Below are positions 1-4,079 of a DNA stretch of 14,802 nt, one piece after another. The translations under genes and the position numbers were made by a program. The notes below the pieces were generated by a model. It ran no database searches. It saw only the letters and a list, made by a program, of their open reading frames with translations, and was not told where the DNA came from. How positions within the stretch are numbered: the stretch's first letter is position 1; every line of letters starts with the position of its first letter. This DNA is from an uncultured Actinomycetes bacterium. GTDB lineage: Bacteria > Actinomycetota > Actinomycetes > Nanopelagicales > Nanopelagicaceae. The stretch is taken from positions 1 to 14,802 of the forward strand of contig CAIUSQ010000230.1 in NCBI GenBank assembly GCA_903901905.1, read 5' to 3'.

Positions 1-211
1 CTAGGAAGGCCGATGGTTGCACGGGTGTAGTAGCCAAGCCTGTGGAGCGCATATCAAATGTGACATTAATACTCTGGCCGGTACTCATGGAAGTTTTATC
101 AATAGTCACATTTGAGTATGAGATTGTTATTGGGTTTGCAGATTGAGCGGTTGAAGGCACAGCAATTAAAGGGACGGTGACCGCCAGTAAAATCGCTAGA
201 AGCCTTTTCAC
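1..211 (-). CDS. Secreted protein of unknown function, N-terminal fragment (runs off the window)
   Basis: A minus-strand reading frame is open from a GTG at 211 to the window edge, giving 70 codons with the C-terminus outside. An in-frame TAA lies only four codons upstream of the GTG, so this is effectively the only initiation site near the N-terminus. The product begins MKRLLAILLAVTVPLIAVPS, a classic signal peptide with a K-R n-region and a hydrophobic core, and probable cleavage after AQSA around residue 25. The mature part (NPITISYSNVTIDKTSMSTG...) is rich in Ser, Thr, Val and Ile with alternating hydrophobic residues, as in beta-sandwich or Ig-like extracellular domains. That reading is inference and no family is recognised. 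It lies beyond the tRNA remnant at 334-369, so it was probably the neighbour of tRNA-Leu before the insertion. Confidence 0.75.
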   Translation of the reverse strand, partial: MKRLLAILLAVTVPLIAVPSTAQSANPITISYSNVTIDKTSMSTGQSINVTFDMRSTGLATTPVQPSAFL

Positions 212-333
212 GTCTTCACTTTACTGGAAAGATCCACAAGAAAAGCTACAAGATAGGTTTCTCAATCAACTGATAAAAAAGTTATACCCCCCACGGGCAG
301 ATGGGTGTAGTCCCTGTTACTTTACCCACGAAA

Positions 334-369
334 TGGTGTCCCGAATGGGATTGAACCCGCACTGGGAGG
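334..369 (-). pseudogene. Remnant of the 3' end of tRNA-Leu (putative attR)
   Basis: On the minus strand this stretch reads as the 3' side of a tRNA: CCTCCCAGT (end of anticodon stem plus variable loop), a T arm with TTCAATC, and a terminal ACACCA. It aligns with the corresponding part of the intact tRNA-Leu at 2510-2546 with five transitions and one deleted base over 37 columns (about 84% identity). The flanking bases CGAA just outside the CCA end also match. Similarity stops at the anticodon stem, and no acceptor 5' half or anticodon loop follows, so it is not a functional tRNA. The deletion and mismatches disrupt the T stem, indicating decay without selection. Sharing of the variable-loop sequence ties it to this tRNA-Leu rather than to tRNAs in general. 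Confidence 0.75.
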
Positions 370-390
370 CTGGGAGCAAAAGGATCTATA

Positions 391-1788
391 TCAATCTTTT
401 TTCAGTGGGCCCTCTATCGCACTTTCTAAAATATTTTTAGTGACAGATCTTGTAAACATTCCAATGTCACTATTTTCTCTTGAACTTAACCCTTGTACTA
501 CCCAACCCATTGTTCCACTAGAAAATAATCCACCTTCGCCATTTATCCCAAAGCCAAGGATCATATTCATAGTTCCATATCTCGGGAAATACCACTTATC
601 ACCACATCGAACTCTTGATTCAGCTAGATTGATGATCTCCCCCCTAAAATTATTGTCATCTTTAAATGTATCGACCTCAACCCCAACAATTTCGCGTAAG
701 TCCAAATTATCTAGATTCTTAATCCCTCGGAAAATCGATGAATCAGGCGTTCTAATTTCTAGTTCACCTTTTGCTGGAAAACATTTGTACTCCAACCCAG
801 TTAGTTCACTTTCAGGCTGATTAATCTCTCTGAATTTAACTGTCGGGTTGAATTTATTTGGATCCTCCTTGGCAGACTTATAAATCTCCATTGTTATTGA
901 TTTATCAAGACTTGATTTAACAAGTCTGGTATTCCAATATCCAGCGTTTGCACCAAAAAATAATGTATTCATCCCAGATTTCCTAGCACTCAAAACACTA
1001 TTTCTTTCTTGAAGAGTCCAATACTCGTCGTGTCCAGCACTTATTAAAACTGTTCGATTAGCAAGTAAATCCTTTTCAAAGTGTAGATCGGTATCTGCAA
1101 CATATGCCACATCAAGATTCAGTTTTTCAATATATACAACTAAAGGATGGACATATTTTAAGTACTTACCAGTTCCGAAATTCTTGTCATACGGCTTTCG
1201 AAAATCAACAATTCTCAGTCTTTTGTCAAAATCTCCAGCGGCTCCATATGTATCTGCTCCACTCCAGGTGTTATAGGCCTGCATAGTCATTATGGGAATT
1301 GAGAAAATCGCCTTTGCGGTGGAGTTTTTTTCTCTTAAAACAATAGGAACAAAACTGGAAAACTTTTGATCGTCCTCAATCTGAAACAAATACATCCCGT
1401 GGGGGAAATTATTGGTACTAATTGATGTAGTCACACTCCATTTAGATGGAGTTTTATCCATCTGATCTTTACAACTGAAACTTTTAGATCTCTGGATTAC
1501 CTTGCCTTCTTTACCTTCATAAGAACCAATTCTTATGGCTTTTATTTGAAATGATTTAGTCGGGCAAGTTATCTTGAAATCAATTACATCTCCTACAAAA
1601 TTAGAGGCACTGTTCGTGAAGCCAGCTGTGCTTTTTCGGAAGTTGTCATTCTTAATTAGAAGGAAAGGATCTATAGCCCCTGACGCGTTTGGAATATTGA
1701 GTAAGGTAAAACTTATAAAGAAGAGGAGATAGGTATGGAGCTTCATCAAGATTTTATTTGACTTTGTATACAAAGGAATTCTTTTCAC
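391..1788 (-). CDS. Secreted N,N-dimethylformamidase beta-subunit-like protein
   Basis: About 465 aa. An SD-like AGGA at 1797-1800 precedes two tandem GTGs (1791 and 1788). I choose 1788 (8-nt spacing); 1791, a TTG at 1803 or an ATG at 1746 are alternatives. The ATG at 1746 would give the shortest signal peptide (MKLHTYLLFFISFTLL). With the longer start the hydrophobic segment is residues 20-32, probably cleaved near ASGA (~39). Motifs recall the C-terminal domain of the DMFase large-subunit family: MTMQAYNTWSGADTYG (168-183), VDFRKPY (195-201), SAGHDEYW (251-258) and FFGANAGYW (278-286). In characterised DMFase an iron centre is held by Tyr and Glu ligands. Glu256 of HDEYW may correspond to the Glu ligand, but this is inference. 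Substrate is unknown and amidase activity should not be assumed. C76 and C107 could form a disulfide. It follows the small secreted gene by ~45 nt, so an operon is likely. Confidence 0.8.
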   Translation of the reverse strand: MKRIPLYTKSNKILMKLHTYLLFFISFTLLNIPNASGAIDPFLLIKNDNFRKSTAGFTNSASNFVGDVIDFKITCPTKSFQIKAIRIGSYEGKEGKVIQRSKSFSCKDQMDKTPSKWSVTTSISTNNFPHGMYLFQIEDDQKFSSFVPIVLREKNSTAKAIFSIPIMTMQAYNTWSGADTYGAAGDFDKRLRIVDFRKPYDKNFGTGKYLKYVHPLVVYIEKLNLDVAYVADTDLHFEKDLLANRTVLISAGHDEYWTLQERNSVLSARKSGMNTLFFGANAGYWNTRLVKSSLDKSITMEIYKSAKEDPNKFNPTVKFREINQPESELTGLEYKCFPAKGELEIRTPDSSIFRGIKNLDNLDLREIVGVEVDTFKDDNNFRGEIINLAESRVRCGDKWYFPRYGTMNMILGFGINGEGGLFSSGTMGWVVQGLSSRENSDIGMFTRSVTKNILESAIEGPLKKD

Positions 1789-1832
1789 CACTTCTTTCCT
1801 CAACTGTTAGGGGTAATTGACCGCATTGCAGG

Positions 1833-2219
1833 CTACTTAACTTTAAATCTTGGAGGGCATTTTTGAAAAGGACCAACAACTCTTTTCGTGGTCCGCCCTT
1901 TTGTGCAAATCAGCGGTAGTCTCTCTAAACTTAGGACTTGAACTTCTACCAAACTATAGGCGGTTCGAAATGGGACCACAGGATCGTTTGGCTTAATTTG
2001 TAGCCAGTTGGATTTGGTAACGTTTATCTGGCGACTTAAGTTAGGTCTCAATTTTTCAAGATGGTCAATTCTCTTTTTTATCTCACTTGTTAATATTTTT
2101 TGATCTGATATTTCAGCCTCAGTTGGATTTGGTTGGGTTACTGCATCCACCGCAAAGCTTGCACTTATTCCAATGCCTAACAGGGAAACAAGTATTACCG
2201 AGACAATTCGAACTTTCAC
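1833..2219 (-). CDS. Small secreted protein with C-terminal two-cysteine basic tail
   Basis: About 128 aa. The GTG at 2219 gives MKVRIVSVILVSLLGIGISA, a clean signal peptide with likely cleavage after SFA; a TTG at 2237 would add six residues (MLNNYI) and is less attractive. No strong Shine-Dalgarno sequence is visible. The mature protein starts with a Pro/Glu-rich stretch, then a probably helical charged segment (EIKKRIDHLEKLRPNLSRQI, around residues 45-65). It ends with ICTKGRTTKRVVGPFQKCPP and a basic terminus. Tails of the type C-x-KG-x-T-x-K...CP are, from memory, common on secreted proteins of freshwater Actinobacteria, which suggests a shared surface-anchoring or disulfide-closed module; that is inference. 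It is the first gene of a likely two-gene operon with the DMFase-like protein. No enzymatic family is recognised. Confidence 0.65.
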   Translation of the reverse strand: MKVRIVSVILVSLLGIGISASFAVDAVTQPNPTEAEISDQKILTSEIKKRIDHLEKLRPNLSRQINVTKSNWLQIKPNDPVVPFRTAYSLVEVQVLSLERLPLICTKGRTTKRVVGPFQKCPPRFKVK

Positions 2220-2303
2220 GATGTAATTATTTAGCAAAAATTCATATTTGGGTAGTACTCAGCGCTGTGAACGCAAAATTAAACACCCAGGGTCATAGTT
2301 TTT

Positions 2304-2331
2304 CCGATAACCCAATGGCAGAGGTAAAGGA
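2304..2331 (+). pseudogene. Inverted fragment resembling the 5' half of tRNA-Leu (tRNA-like segment)
   Basis: On the plus strand these 28 bases match nucleotides 4-31 of tRNA-Leu (minus strand, 2582-2555) at 25 positions, in inverted orientation. The shared core is CCCAATGGCAGAGG (D arm). Two of the three differences fall at the paired D-stem positions 10 and 25 (G-C in the tRNA, A-T here), a compensatory change. Beyond it no anticodon loop can be drawn, because the U33 position is wrong. A separate hairpin follows at about 2341-2375, with arms TTTGCTC/GAGGAAA and GTGC/GCAC around a 12-nt loop. TTTCC (2301-2305) could pair with GGAAA (2371-2375) like an acceptor stem. The segment is not a complete tRNA by eye. 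It lies in the 290-base gap between the small secreted gene and the tRNA, which otherwise shows no gene; the operon promoter must lie here but I cannot assign it. Confidence 0.5.
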
Positions 2332-2509
2332 GCGAAAGCTTTGCTCAAGTGCAGCTGATTTGGAGCACGAGGAAACGAGCACCTGATCATTGCCTTGAAA
2401 TTCTGCATGAAAATGTATGCACTTGTGTATGAATTGTCATTTAGTGACCAAAAAATAACTGCAATGTGCAAGATGATTTATGCACGAAGGCAACTTAATA
2501 CGCGCGAAT

Positions 2510-2585
2510 TGGTGCCCCGAGTGGGGGTCGAACCCACACTGGGAGGATTTTAAGTCCTCTGCCTCTGCCATTGGGCTATCGGGGC
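2510..2585 (-). tRNA. tRNA-Leu (anticodon UAA), short variable arm
   Basis: Full cloverleaf on the minus strand with encoded CCA, 76 nt. Acceptor GCCCCGA pairs perfectly with TCGGGGC, followed by discriminator A and CCA. The D arm is GCC/GGC with a GG in its loop. Anticodon stem GAGGA/TCCTC closes the loop CTTAAAA, giving anticodon TAA (codon UUA). The variable loop is only CCAGT. The T arm is GTGGG/CCCAC with loop TTCGACC. The anticodon assigns leucine, but bacterial tRNA-Leu normally has a long (class II) variable arm and this one has five nucleotides, which is unusual. It sits downstream of ppx, a position where other Actinobacteria also carry a tRNA-Leu. Its 3' end appears to have served as an integration site. 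Confidence 0.93.
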
Positions 2586-2682: not shown

Positions 2683-3600
2683 TTAACTGCCACTGGCAAT
2701 CGAGAGGGCTATTCCATCCAGAATATCTGTTTCGGAGGCAATAAATTCAGTTGCTTTGGTCGCTTTCATTACCTCCGAAAGAACCAAAGAACCAGCCGTA
2801 ATTACATCTACTCGACCAGGATGCATGTAACCAAGATTCTTTCGGTCATCTCTATTTGTTTTCTTAAACATGTCAGATACTTCATGAACTTGTACTGCCG
2901 AGATGCGTGATAAGTGGATTGTATAACGATCATAGATATCTAATTTAAGAGCTGCTGCTGCAACTGTTGTTGCAGTTCCAGCTACGGCTACAAGAGTTTT
3001 TGCTTGAGTAATAGGAACTTCGGTCCCTGCAAGTGCAATGGCCTCTTGAATATCCGCTCTTGCTAATTCGATTTGATTATGCGTTGGAGGATCGTCCTTA
3101 AAGTGGCGCTCACTCATTCGCACACATCCGATATTTACACTCTTTGCAGATTCAACTTCGTTATTACCAAAGACAAATTCTGTTGAGCCCCCACCAATGT
3201 CAACAACTAAAAATGGTCCAAGTTTTGGATCCAACTCTTGAATGGCTCCTATAAATGATAGTTCGGCTTCTTCAGCGCCGGTTATAACTTCTACCTCGAT
3301 GCCTAAGCGCTCACGAACCCCATCAATAAACAAGGCCCGATTAGTTGCATCTCTGGTTGCACTTGTTGCACAGAAGCGAATCTTTTGAACACCTCGGCGA
3401 GCAATCTCGGCAGCAAATTTATCAACAGCCGCAAGTGTTCGCTTGATGGCATCTGGGTGAAATTCTCCGGTTTGATCAACACCTTGACCAAGACGAACTA
3501 TCTCCATGTCTCGCACAACTTCGCGAAGTTTATTTGACTCTACATCTGCAATCAAGAGGCGAATTGAATTGGTACCGCAGTCAATTGCTGCTACTCGCAT
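2683..3600 (-). CDS. ppx: Exopolyphosphatase / guanosine pentaphosphate phosphatase (Ppx/GppA family)
   Basis: 305 aa. Cytoplasmic ASKHA-fold phosphatase that releases phosphate from polyphosphate chain ends and/or converts pppGpp to ppGpp. The sequence shows the phosphate-1 loop AIDCGTNSIRLL (residues 5-16), the conserved ATSATRDATN (78-87), the candidate catalytic Glu in GAEEAE (around 110-111) and the second ATP/phosphate loop DIGGGST (134-140). The length is that of the short actinobacterial two-domain form without the C-terminal HD domain, so it could be either a true exopolyphosphatase or a shorter-chain/pppGpp-type homologue; the sequence alone does not decide. The ATG at 3600 is chosen because GGAAGAG lies just upstream; a GTG at 3618 is the alternative. 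The start overlaps the DUF501 stop by 10 bases, so translation is probably coupled. Confidence 0.93.
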   Translation of the reverse strand: MRVAAIDCGTNSIRLLIADVESNKLREVVRDMEIVRLGQGVDQTGEFHPDAIKRTLAAVDKFAAEIARRGVQKIRFCATSATRDATNRALFIDGVRERLGIEVEVITGAEEAELSFIGAIQELDPKLGPFLVVDIGGGSTEFVFGNNEVESAKSVNIGCVRMSERHFKDDPPTHNQIELARADIQEAIALAGTEVPITQAKTLVAVAGTATTVAAAALKLDIYDRYTIHLSRISAVQVHEVSDMFKKTNRDDRKNLGYMHPGRVDVITAGSLVLSEVMKATKATEFIASETDILDGIALSIASGS

Positions 3601-4079
3601 GGGTTGCTCTTCCACCACTCTGGTAGTTGTTCAAGGGCTTCATCACCTAAAGGGTTTACATCTGGGCCAGCCGCCAATGAATGGGCAACAAGTGAATGCA
3701 AACACTTAACACGATGTGGCATTCCTCCTGCTGAAACATTTTCCACCTCTGGTACATCCATTTGCAGTGCAGAACGTGCTGCGATGTAATCATCGTGGGC
3801 AGCTGCATATGCACCTGATAACTGCGCATCTGTTTCAAGGCGATCATTCATCTGCCCCATTAATCCAGTTGTTTCAAGCGTTGAAATAACCGCAGTTAAA
3901 CGAGGGCAGGTTGCATAATAAAAAGTGGGAAACGGTGTTCCATCTTCAAGTCGTGGTGGTGTCTCAACAACGGCTGGCTTGCCACATGGACATCGATAGG
4001 CAATTGCATGAACATCGCGAGGTGTACGACCAAGCTGAACTTCAATACAATCAAGATCTGCTTGTGTAACTTCTCTCAC
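3591..4079 (-). CDS. DUF501 family protein
   Basis: 162 aa. Conserved actinobacterial protein of unknown function, found next to eno, divIC and ppx. Recognisable blocks are QLGRTPRDVHAIAYRCPCG (15-33), PRLEDGTPFPTFYYATCPRL (42-61) and GGMPHRVKCLHSLVAHSLA (118-136). Cys30, Cys32, Cys58, Cys126 and His128 are positioned as possible metal ligands or a redox cluster; this is inference from the residue pattern. Near the C-terminus, AGPDVNPLGDEAL is also family-typical. The start is a GTG whose last two bases fall in the divIC stop (GTGA overlap), indicating translational coupling. The stop overlaps the ppx start. Confidence 0.9.
   Translation of the reverse strand: MREVTQADLDCIEVQLGRTPRDVHAIAYRCPCGKPAVVETPPRLEDGTPFPTFYYATCPRLTAVISTLETTGLMGQMNDRLETDAQLSGAYAAAHDDYIAARSALQMDVPEVENVSAGGMPHRVKCLHSLVAHSLAAGPDVNPLGDEALEQLPEWWKSNPCE

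Follow-up and report, generated by a model that had tools for sequence, protein, structure and literature searches.

A tRNA-Leu(UAA) gene as insertion hotspot of a Nanopelagicaceae genus and probable attachment site of integrase elements and small cassettes

Layout of the locus

The window (the whole stretch of DNA that was analysed, 14,802 nucleotides) contains a tRNA-Leu(TAA) gene and, downstream of it, a leader, two genes for putative exported proteins and a displaced copy of the tRNA 3' half. The features are listed by position and strand, with their basis in brackets.

1..211, minus: start of a further gene for a putative exported protein, cut by the window edge (read by eye)
334..369, minus: displaced tRNA-Leu 3' half, nt 40–76 (sequence match to tRNA-Leu)
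391..1803, minus: cassette gene 2, 470 aa, putative exported protein (by eye) with a DMFA2_C domain (PF20254, E 5.8e-64)
1833..2237, minus: cassette gene 1, 134 aa, putative exported protein (by eye, the N-terminus resembles a signal sequence), without a Pfam family
2240..2303, minus: leader box 6, a conserved stretch leading up to cassette gene 1, presumably a promoter or 5' UTR
2304..2331, plus: leader box 5, inverted copy of tRNA-Leu nt 4–31 (5' half), 89% identity
2332..2346, minus: leader box 4, small palindrome (alignment, RNAalifold)
2352..2391, minus: leader box 3, a hairpin in which relatives show compensatory changes (RNAalifold on the 16-locus alignment)
2413..2435, minus: leader box 2, direct repeats that may be arm-type integrase sites (alignment)
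2476..2489, minus: leader box 1 (CTTCGTGC-TAAAT type), conserved shortly behind the tRNA (16-locus alignment)
2510..2585, minus: tRNA-Leu(TAA), 76 nt (ARAGORN; Rfam RF00005, 58.9 bits)
2683..3618, minus: ppx, the core gene that marks the fixed flank of the hotspot (ORF list, comparison with relatives)

Read from the tRNA leftwards, the leader (2509–2240) is followed by the two cassette genes (2237–1833 and 1803–391), the displaced half (369–334) and the gene that starts at position 211. The core gene of the other flank, which codes for a Bax-inhibitor-like protein, lies outside the window, the stretch left of position 1 being unseen. Between the two tRNA copies the insert holds two ORFs of at least 100 aa, both on the minus strand and neither of them an integrase according to the ORF list and Pfam, just as an earlier note on this DNA had described it.

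The tRNA itself has a short variable loop. Its nucleotides 40–76 are repeated at 369–334 in the same orientation, with 83.8% identity over 37 columns and one gap. This bears out the earlier note, which had reported a direct recurrence of the 3' 37 nt at about 84%. The repeat has a local score of 24, a value reached by none of 1000 dinucleotide-preserving shuffles of window positions 1–2480 (mean 9.7, maximum 15). The same note had described one deletion, which corresponds to the gap, and substitutions that were all transitions; this second part depends on where the gap is placed, as the five substitutions include one transversion in the printed alignment and become all transitions once the gap is moved by two columns. 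With the intact tRNA (2510–2585) at one end and the displaced fragment (334–369) at the other, the window has the geometry of an integrated element. The inverted copy of the 5' half at 2304–2331, which the earlier note had missed, scores 22 against a shuffle maximum of 15 (0/1000) and terminates at the anticodon stem.

In the complete relative G157, a single TAA tRNA is present among 38 Rfam tRNA matches, and it is located at the hotspot. ARAGORN alone adds an 89-nt tRNA-Leu(taa) across the displaced half of this genome, which we consider spurious. The possibility of a long-armed tRNA-Leu(TAA) at another place was set aside: none was recognised with two patterns in 13 complete genomes, and the Rfam set of G157 has the one TAA tRNA.

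Empty and filled sites in the genus

The gene order in the genus is ppx, tRNA-Leu, a variable gap and the Bax-inhibitor-like gene. The tRNA was matched in at least 106 of 135 genus genomes and the Bax-inhibitor-like gene in 107 of 135, and the 69 genomes with both markers listed on one contig form the scorable set. The site is empty in 37 of these 69, with 29–160 nt from the tRNA to the Bax-inhibitor-like gene, and filled in 32, with gaps of 830–19,064 nt (median 3,184); among the matches listed, 8 of 13 single-contig genomes are filled. The nearest genome compared, G001 (90% identical over ppx and tRNA), has an empty site, as does the other closest relative, G074. The earlier note had looked to relatives in which the tRNA would directly abut the 1–211 gene; a close junction does exist in the 37 listed genomes (G001, G074 and 35 others), its neighbour being the Bax-inhibitor-like gene and not the 1–211 gene. 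Genomes with the markers on different contigs were left unscored, as were G024, G095 and G101, in which the gap can be seen to be filled from a partial Bax-inhibitor-like gene at the end of a contig. The two empty copies of G154 were scored as one, and G036 was scored empty, though a second tRNA contig in its assembly has a different downstream sequence. In G017 and G079 the contig runs on for 28 and 274 nt past the tRNA, and this downstream stretch begins as it does in the window.

The contents of the gap vary among relatives, so that the same two genes at fixed positions everywhere, which the earlier note had named as the outcome that would speak against an island, were not what was found. 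ORFs behind the tRNA were listed for 24 loci; in 18 of them the first ORF is co-directional with the tRNA, and about 14 of these 18 have signal- or anchor-like N-termini (by eye). Exceptions in the cargo include a lone FAD oxidoreductase in L041 and L042, which is plainly metabolic, and a regulator in L048. Few Pfam matches were obtained for the exported-type cargo proteins tested. The tRNA-Leu(UAA) site is accordingly an insertion hotspot of this Nanopelagicaceae genus, and many of its inserts are small gene sets, often for exported proteins, oriented in the tRNA direction and without an integrase. A cargo common to the site across relatives was considered and rejected, the 470-aa gene not being found at tRNA-Leu in any of them. 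Its three nearest homologues in the genus (59, 45 and 42% identity) lie on other contigs or on a stretch without a tRNA-Leu copy. Homologues in G083 and G105 have a tRNA-Ser and a tRNA-Met, respectively, within about 0.75 kb, and that of G101 has no tRNA nearby.

Displaced 3' halves and arrays

Besides the one in the window, blastn searches with the tRNA in the loci examined gave 26 displaced 3' copies in 20 relatives, a count which omits one copy at a contig end and may be too low for the early loci, where one tRNA variant was used as query (the G022 copy was found only with a second variant). The copies of three of the 20 relatives (G011, G031 and G023) sit on contigs without either marker, and their placement at the hotspot is putative. 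The copies start at tRNA nt 26–40, i.e. in the anticodon arm, in 20 of 26 cases; three longer ones start at nt 7, 8 and 17, and three shorter ones at nt 43, 46 and 48. This corrects the earlier reading by placing the crossover at the anticodon arm. In the two tightest copies of G008 the repeat begins inside the stop codon of the preceding gene. Halves 97–100% identical to a tRNA variant are found in G008, G011, G095, G121 and G094, and two or three successive copies per locus in G008, G090, G121, G095 and G097. Eighteen filled gaps were covered from the tRNA to the Bax-inhibitor-like gene; a displaced copy is present in 10 and absent from 8, so some gaps may have been filled by other routes, or the boundary marks may have been lost with time. 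Where marks remain, their anatomy gives good support to site-specific insertion at the anticodon arm.

In the window, the earlier note had taken 334–369 for the far end of the island. The displaced half is there, and it most likely marks an internal boundary between two cassettes of an array, the 1–211 gene probably opening the next one. Beyond position 334, a short TTTCGTG-GTA alone resembles a leader start, that of G079.

The leader behind the tRNA

A leader of about 250 nt behind a tRNA copy could be aligned in 16 loci, including the window and three loci that carry an integrase; all 16 were picked for carrying it, and in G090 it follows the second tRNA copy. It consists, in this order, of box 1, arm-like direct repeats, a hairpin, a palindrome, the tRNA 5' half in inverted form and a final conserved stretch that leads up to the first gene. 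The strict motif TACACAATTNATACAC was found in 3 of the 61 genus genomes covered, every time at this locus, and has no exact match in the window. RNAalifold predicts 17 pairs for the leader, four of which are changed on both sides in 5–7 of the 16 sequences (kinship ignored), with a modest consensus energy of -8.5 kcal/mol. In the window copy of the box 3 hairpin, 4 of 8 pairs are broken (by eye). Considering this together with the 84% identity of its displaced half, the window copy looks like an older, partly decayed insertion, and its present mobility is doubtful.

Among the 18 filled gaps, leader matches lie within 300 nt of the tRNA in seven (one of them, in G096, of about 38 nt only) and elsewhere in the gap only in G008 and G090; the other nine have none anywhere. 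In G094 the leader restarts directly behind the displaced half, with 88% identity over 121 nt. Parts of it recur ahead of other genes in G090, G096 and G155. Away from this tRNA, G096 has a tRNA 5' half whose anticodon stem is fused to the last part of a cassette gene, and in one of two copies in G155 a 5' half is fused to a remnant resembling such a gene end. These junctions may be products of recombination in inverse orientation, which the near-palindromic core would allow.

Integrases at the site

ORFs of 381–401 aa with Phage_integrase and SAM-like domains are present at three filled sites, those of G157, G124 and G090 (the domain test of the last covers the part within L251 only). The integrases of G157 and G124 adjoin a displaced half, and that of G090 adjoins a second full tRNA copy. 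Homologues were found in 13 of 135 genomes, with at least 43% identity in 6 of 135. Four of these six (G157, G124, G125 and G090) have the integrase beside a tRNA-Leu copy; G063 shows a weak tRNA match only, and the G027 sequence is a fragment near a tRNA-Tyr. The G125 integrase is interrupted by two stops; on one side it has a displaced half, beyond which lies the Bax-inhibitor-like gene, and on the other the contig end. Over the 19 homologue loci, ARAGORN detected a tRNA, of various kinds, in 11. Of the 8 loci without one, two hold displaced halves. The residues R, K, H, R, H and Y, which we take to be the catalytic set of these integrases, are invariant in 13 aligned sequences. Three of the 120 listed integrase homologues are named Candidatus Nanopelagicaceae.

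Larger islands in the same gap, which the earlier note had proposed to look for, were also found; in a few of them an integrase gene adjoins the tRNA or its displaced half. In G157 and G124 the element codes for an HTH protein similar to replication initiators and for an endonuclease-like protein of the DUF4379 type, and that of G090 for a type IIG restriction enzyme, an SNF2/PLD helicase and an excisionase-like HTH protein. Among the tested ORFs of these three elements, which are a subset, there were no virion, packaging or phage-hijacking genes. The site and its leader are shared by a few fuller elements, which have an integrase and genes like those of replication initiators or, in other cases, a restriction system.

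The Phage_integrase model had 52 matches in 30 whole genomes, none of them at the hotspot; 48 fall into two groups taken for XerC/XerD on account of their length and number. These recombinases, which are probably present nearly everywhere, were set aside as candidates for moving the cassettes. At the sites of G008 and G011 no integrase was found with the Pfam model, nor at those of G008, G011, G095, G121 and G094 in a search with the G157 integrase. Short integrases (about 250 aa, in 11 of 135 genomes) were considered as helpers and dropped in favour of the 380–400-aa family: in 13 loci they adjoin a tRNA-Lys or tRNA-Arg in 4 and no tRNA in 9, and only in G015, a single-contig genome, does one share a contig with tRNA-Leu, at a distance of about 182 kb. 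A phage source was likewise set aside. Scans of IMG/VR for the tRNA core with two patterns gave 106 loci without an isolated attP-type half (by eye), nearly all of them a complete tRNA gene around the pattern; the exceptions are L162, cut at its left end, L182, cut at its right end, and L202, an unrelated match. The G157 integrase as single query had no relative on viral contigs, and the integrase alignment as query had 261, the best among the 80 listed (IMG/VR) being 34% identical.

Proposed mechanism and alternatives

The reading which we favour, and which we think probable, is that tRNA-Leu(UAA) is the attachment site of tyrosine-integrase elements, where small cassettes moved in trans stack as an array. 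Strand exchange would take place in the anticodon loop (GAGGA-CTTAAAA-TCCTC), and the insert would supply its own tRNA 3' half, so that the gene is restored and the old 3' half is pushed to the far side; where displaced halves remain, a restored tRNA with the old half displaced is what their anatomy shows. The window tRNA would then be the intact target, with a 3' half that came from the element. The integrase of the fuller elements would bind the direct repeats of the leader and could also mobilise the small cassettes in trans, as we infer from the leader common to integrase-bearing and integrase-less loci, and repeated insertions would build the array. The window would most likely hold a two-gene cassette between the leader and the decayed half at 334–369, with a further cassette beyond. 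The tyrosine-recombinase geometry, which the earlier note had recognised, gains support from the empty and filled sites, the 26 further copies and the integrases of four genomes. Against the favoured reading stand the 8 of 18 filled gaps in which a displaced copy is lacking, the 9 of 18 without a leader match, the plainly metabolic content of some gaps (L041 and L042, for instance), the decay of half and hairpin in the window and the rarity of integrases of this clade. No circular form, excision or transfer of cassettes was seen in the sequence data.

An insert of this kind could also be a relic, i.e. an autonomous element integrated by its own integrase, which later lost this gene and its other mobility genes by deletion. 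The leader of the integrase-bearing elements, the broken integrase beside the displaced half in G125 and the decayed half and hairpin of the window all agree with such a history. The near-identical halves of the five genomes without a detected integrase at the site argue against it, as do the successive copies, which fit repeated insertion better than one decaying element, and we regard the relic as a real though minority possibility. Another route would be homologous recombination following DNA uptake, with the tRNA copies and flanks as regions of exchange and with no need for a site-specific recombinase at this step; repeats of 27–59 nt are available for it, and it would be in line with the lack of Phage_integrase matches at the hotspot in the 30 whole genomes and with the many filled gaps that have no displaced copy. 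It appears unlikely, however, since the homology begins at nt 26–40 in 20 of 26 copies, which is the pattern predicted by strand exchange, the arm-like motif was confined to this locus among 61 genomes and integrases occupy the same site in four. That 334–369 is a chance match or a decayed tRNA pseudogene unrelated to insertion would be in keeping with its mere 84% identity over 37 columns, but with no shuffle reaching its score and the same part of the tRNA recurring in 20 relatives, this is extremely improbable.

Integrons are built of small cassettes stacked one way behind a fixed leader, with attC sites between the cassettes, an attI site and the integrase IntI. The inserts described here share with them the small size of the cassettes, the single direction and the fixed leader; they differ in that the boundaries are tRNA 3' halves and not attC, and in that the integrase belongs to fuller elements at the site. 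A more far-reaching and rather doubtful proposal is that the tRNA is the fixed platform of an integron-like system, with the structured leader, common to helper elements and integrase-less cassettes, as platform for recombination and expression, a helper integrase and a near-palindromic anticodon core that recombines in both orientations. New exported-protein cassettes would then be placed first behind the leader by the helper's integrase, and recombination in both orientations would have left the inverted 5' half and would allow inversion around the tRNA.

Relation to known systems

Additive flexible genomic islands with tRNA repeats are described for 'Ca. Methylopumilus' (fGI-2, PMC10872708) and for the cassettes of 'Ca. 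Actinomarinales' (fGI1, PMC7771536). As far as the available parts of these papers go, the likeness extends to the variable content and small size of the gene sets, their place next to a tRNA of which a part is directly repeated, the streamlined aquatic hosts and the additive growth. The genus studied here shows the features expected of such islands, with tRNA 3' repeats between variable blocks and a site that is varied or empty in relatives. It differs in that a crossover region, an integrase family at the site (four genomes) and a structured leader could be identified, along with empty sites in 37 of the 69 scorable relatives; the available parts of the fGI-2 and fGI1 descriptions (PMC10872708, PMC7771536) contain no such leader or link to an integrase. 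The tRNA-targeting integrases of actinobacteriophages and mycobacteriophages use common cores of 30–45 bp which cover the tRNA 3' half, according to the part available of PMC10865867, and the same source shows further parallels in the restored tRNA, the exchange in the anticodon loop and the arm-type repeats near the core. Unlike these phages, many inserts here have no integrase, the tested ORFs include no virion genes, the copies stack in arrays and the leader has an inverted tRNA 5' half. Tycheposons, in what PMC10872708 relates of them, are elements of 4–200 kb characterised by their own recombinase; they resemble the present case as tRNA-anchored cargo with a tyrosine recombinase system, whereas the window insert is about 2 kb long and without a recombinase.

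In kind, these inserts belong to the additive tRNA islands already known, and the new part is the integrase family together with the leader. The literature searched, as far as its texts were available, held no description of this locus, leader or integrase, and a prior description is possible.

Streamlined freshwater actinobacteria are regarded as genetically lean, and in this group genes are often gained and lost at a single tRNA gene. As candidate enzymes and sites can now be named by sequence, the growth of recombinase-less additive islands becomes testable, and the test reduces to one integrase and one core sequence.

Short-armed tRNA-Leu genes and related insertions

Bacterial tRNA-Leu is usually long-armed, unlike the tRNA-Leu genes reading UUA and UUG found here, which have short variable loops and a length of 74–76 nt (positions 2510–2585 of the window, and 115–188 of locus L415 in the related genome G157). 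The Leu(gag) and Leu(tag) genes of G157 are longer (82–85 nt), and only one TAA gene is present among the 38 Rfam tRNA matches of this genome. On viral contigs from IMG/VR, too, genes like this short-armed tRNA-Leu(TAA) are common in complete form, and the core pattern is present in 106 IMG/VR stretches (L108–L213).

In the relative G090 (L251 and L252), two full tRNA-Leu copies bracket an insert of about 13 kb, whose genes code for a type IIG restriction enzyme, a SNF2/PLD helicase, an excisionase-like protein and a tyrosine integrase of the 380–400-aa family. Six relatives of the 380–400-aa integrase are found on six contigs of G125 (L288, L299 and L301–L304), and the stretch retrieved around each of them contains a tRNA gene or else half of a tRNA-Leu.

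Two modules resembling the leader, the conserved stretch of about 250 nt behind tRNA-Leu, precede small genes with lipoprotein-like starts in G155 (L267, 10682–11508). Both modules carry tRNA 5' halves, and there is no tRNA-Leu call in this stretch. In G083 (L306), a tRNA-Ser gene lies beside the second-best homologue within the genus of the 470-aa cargo protein (PF20254) encoded in the window.

Four genomes (L273, L275, L276 and L277) each have a member of a family of tyrosine recombinases of about 250 aa immediately after a tRNA gene, which is tRNA-Lys(ctt) or tRNA-Arg(acg). Nine further loci of this family show no tRNA. The occurrence of these recombinases at the tRNA-Lys(ctt) and tRNA-Arg(acg) sites suggests that the latter are sister hotspots.
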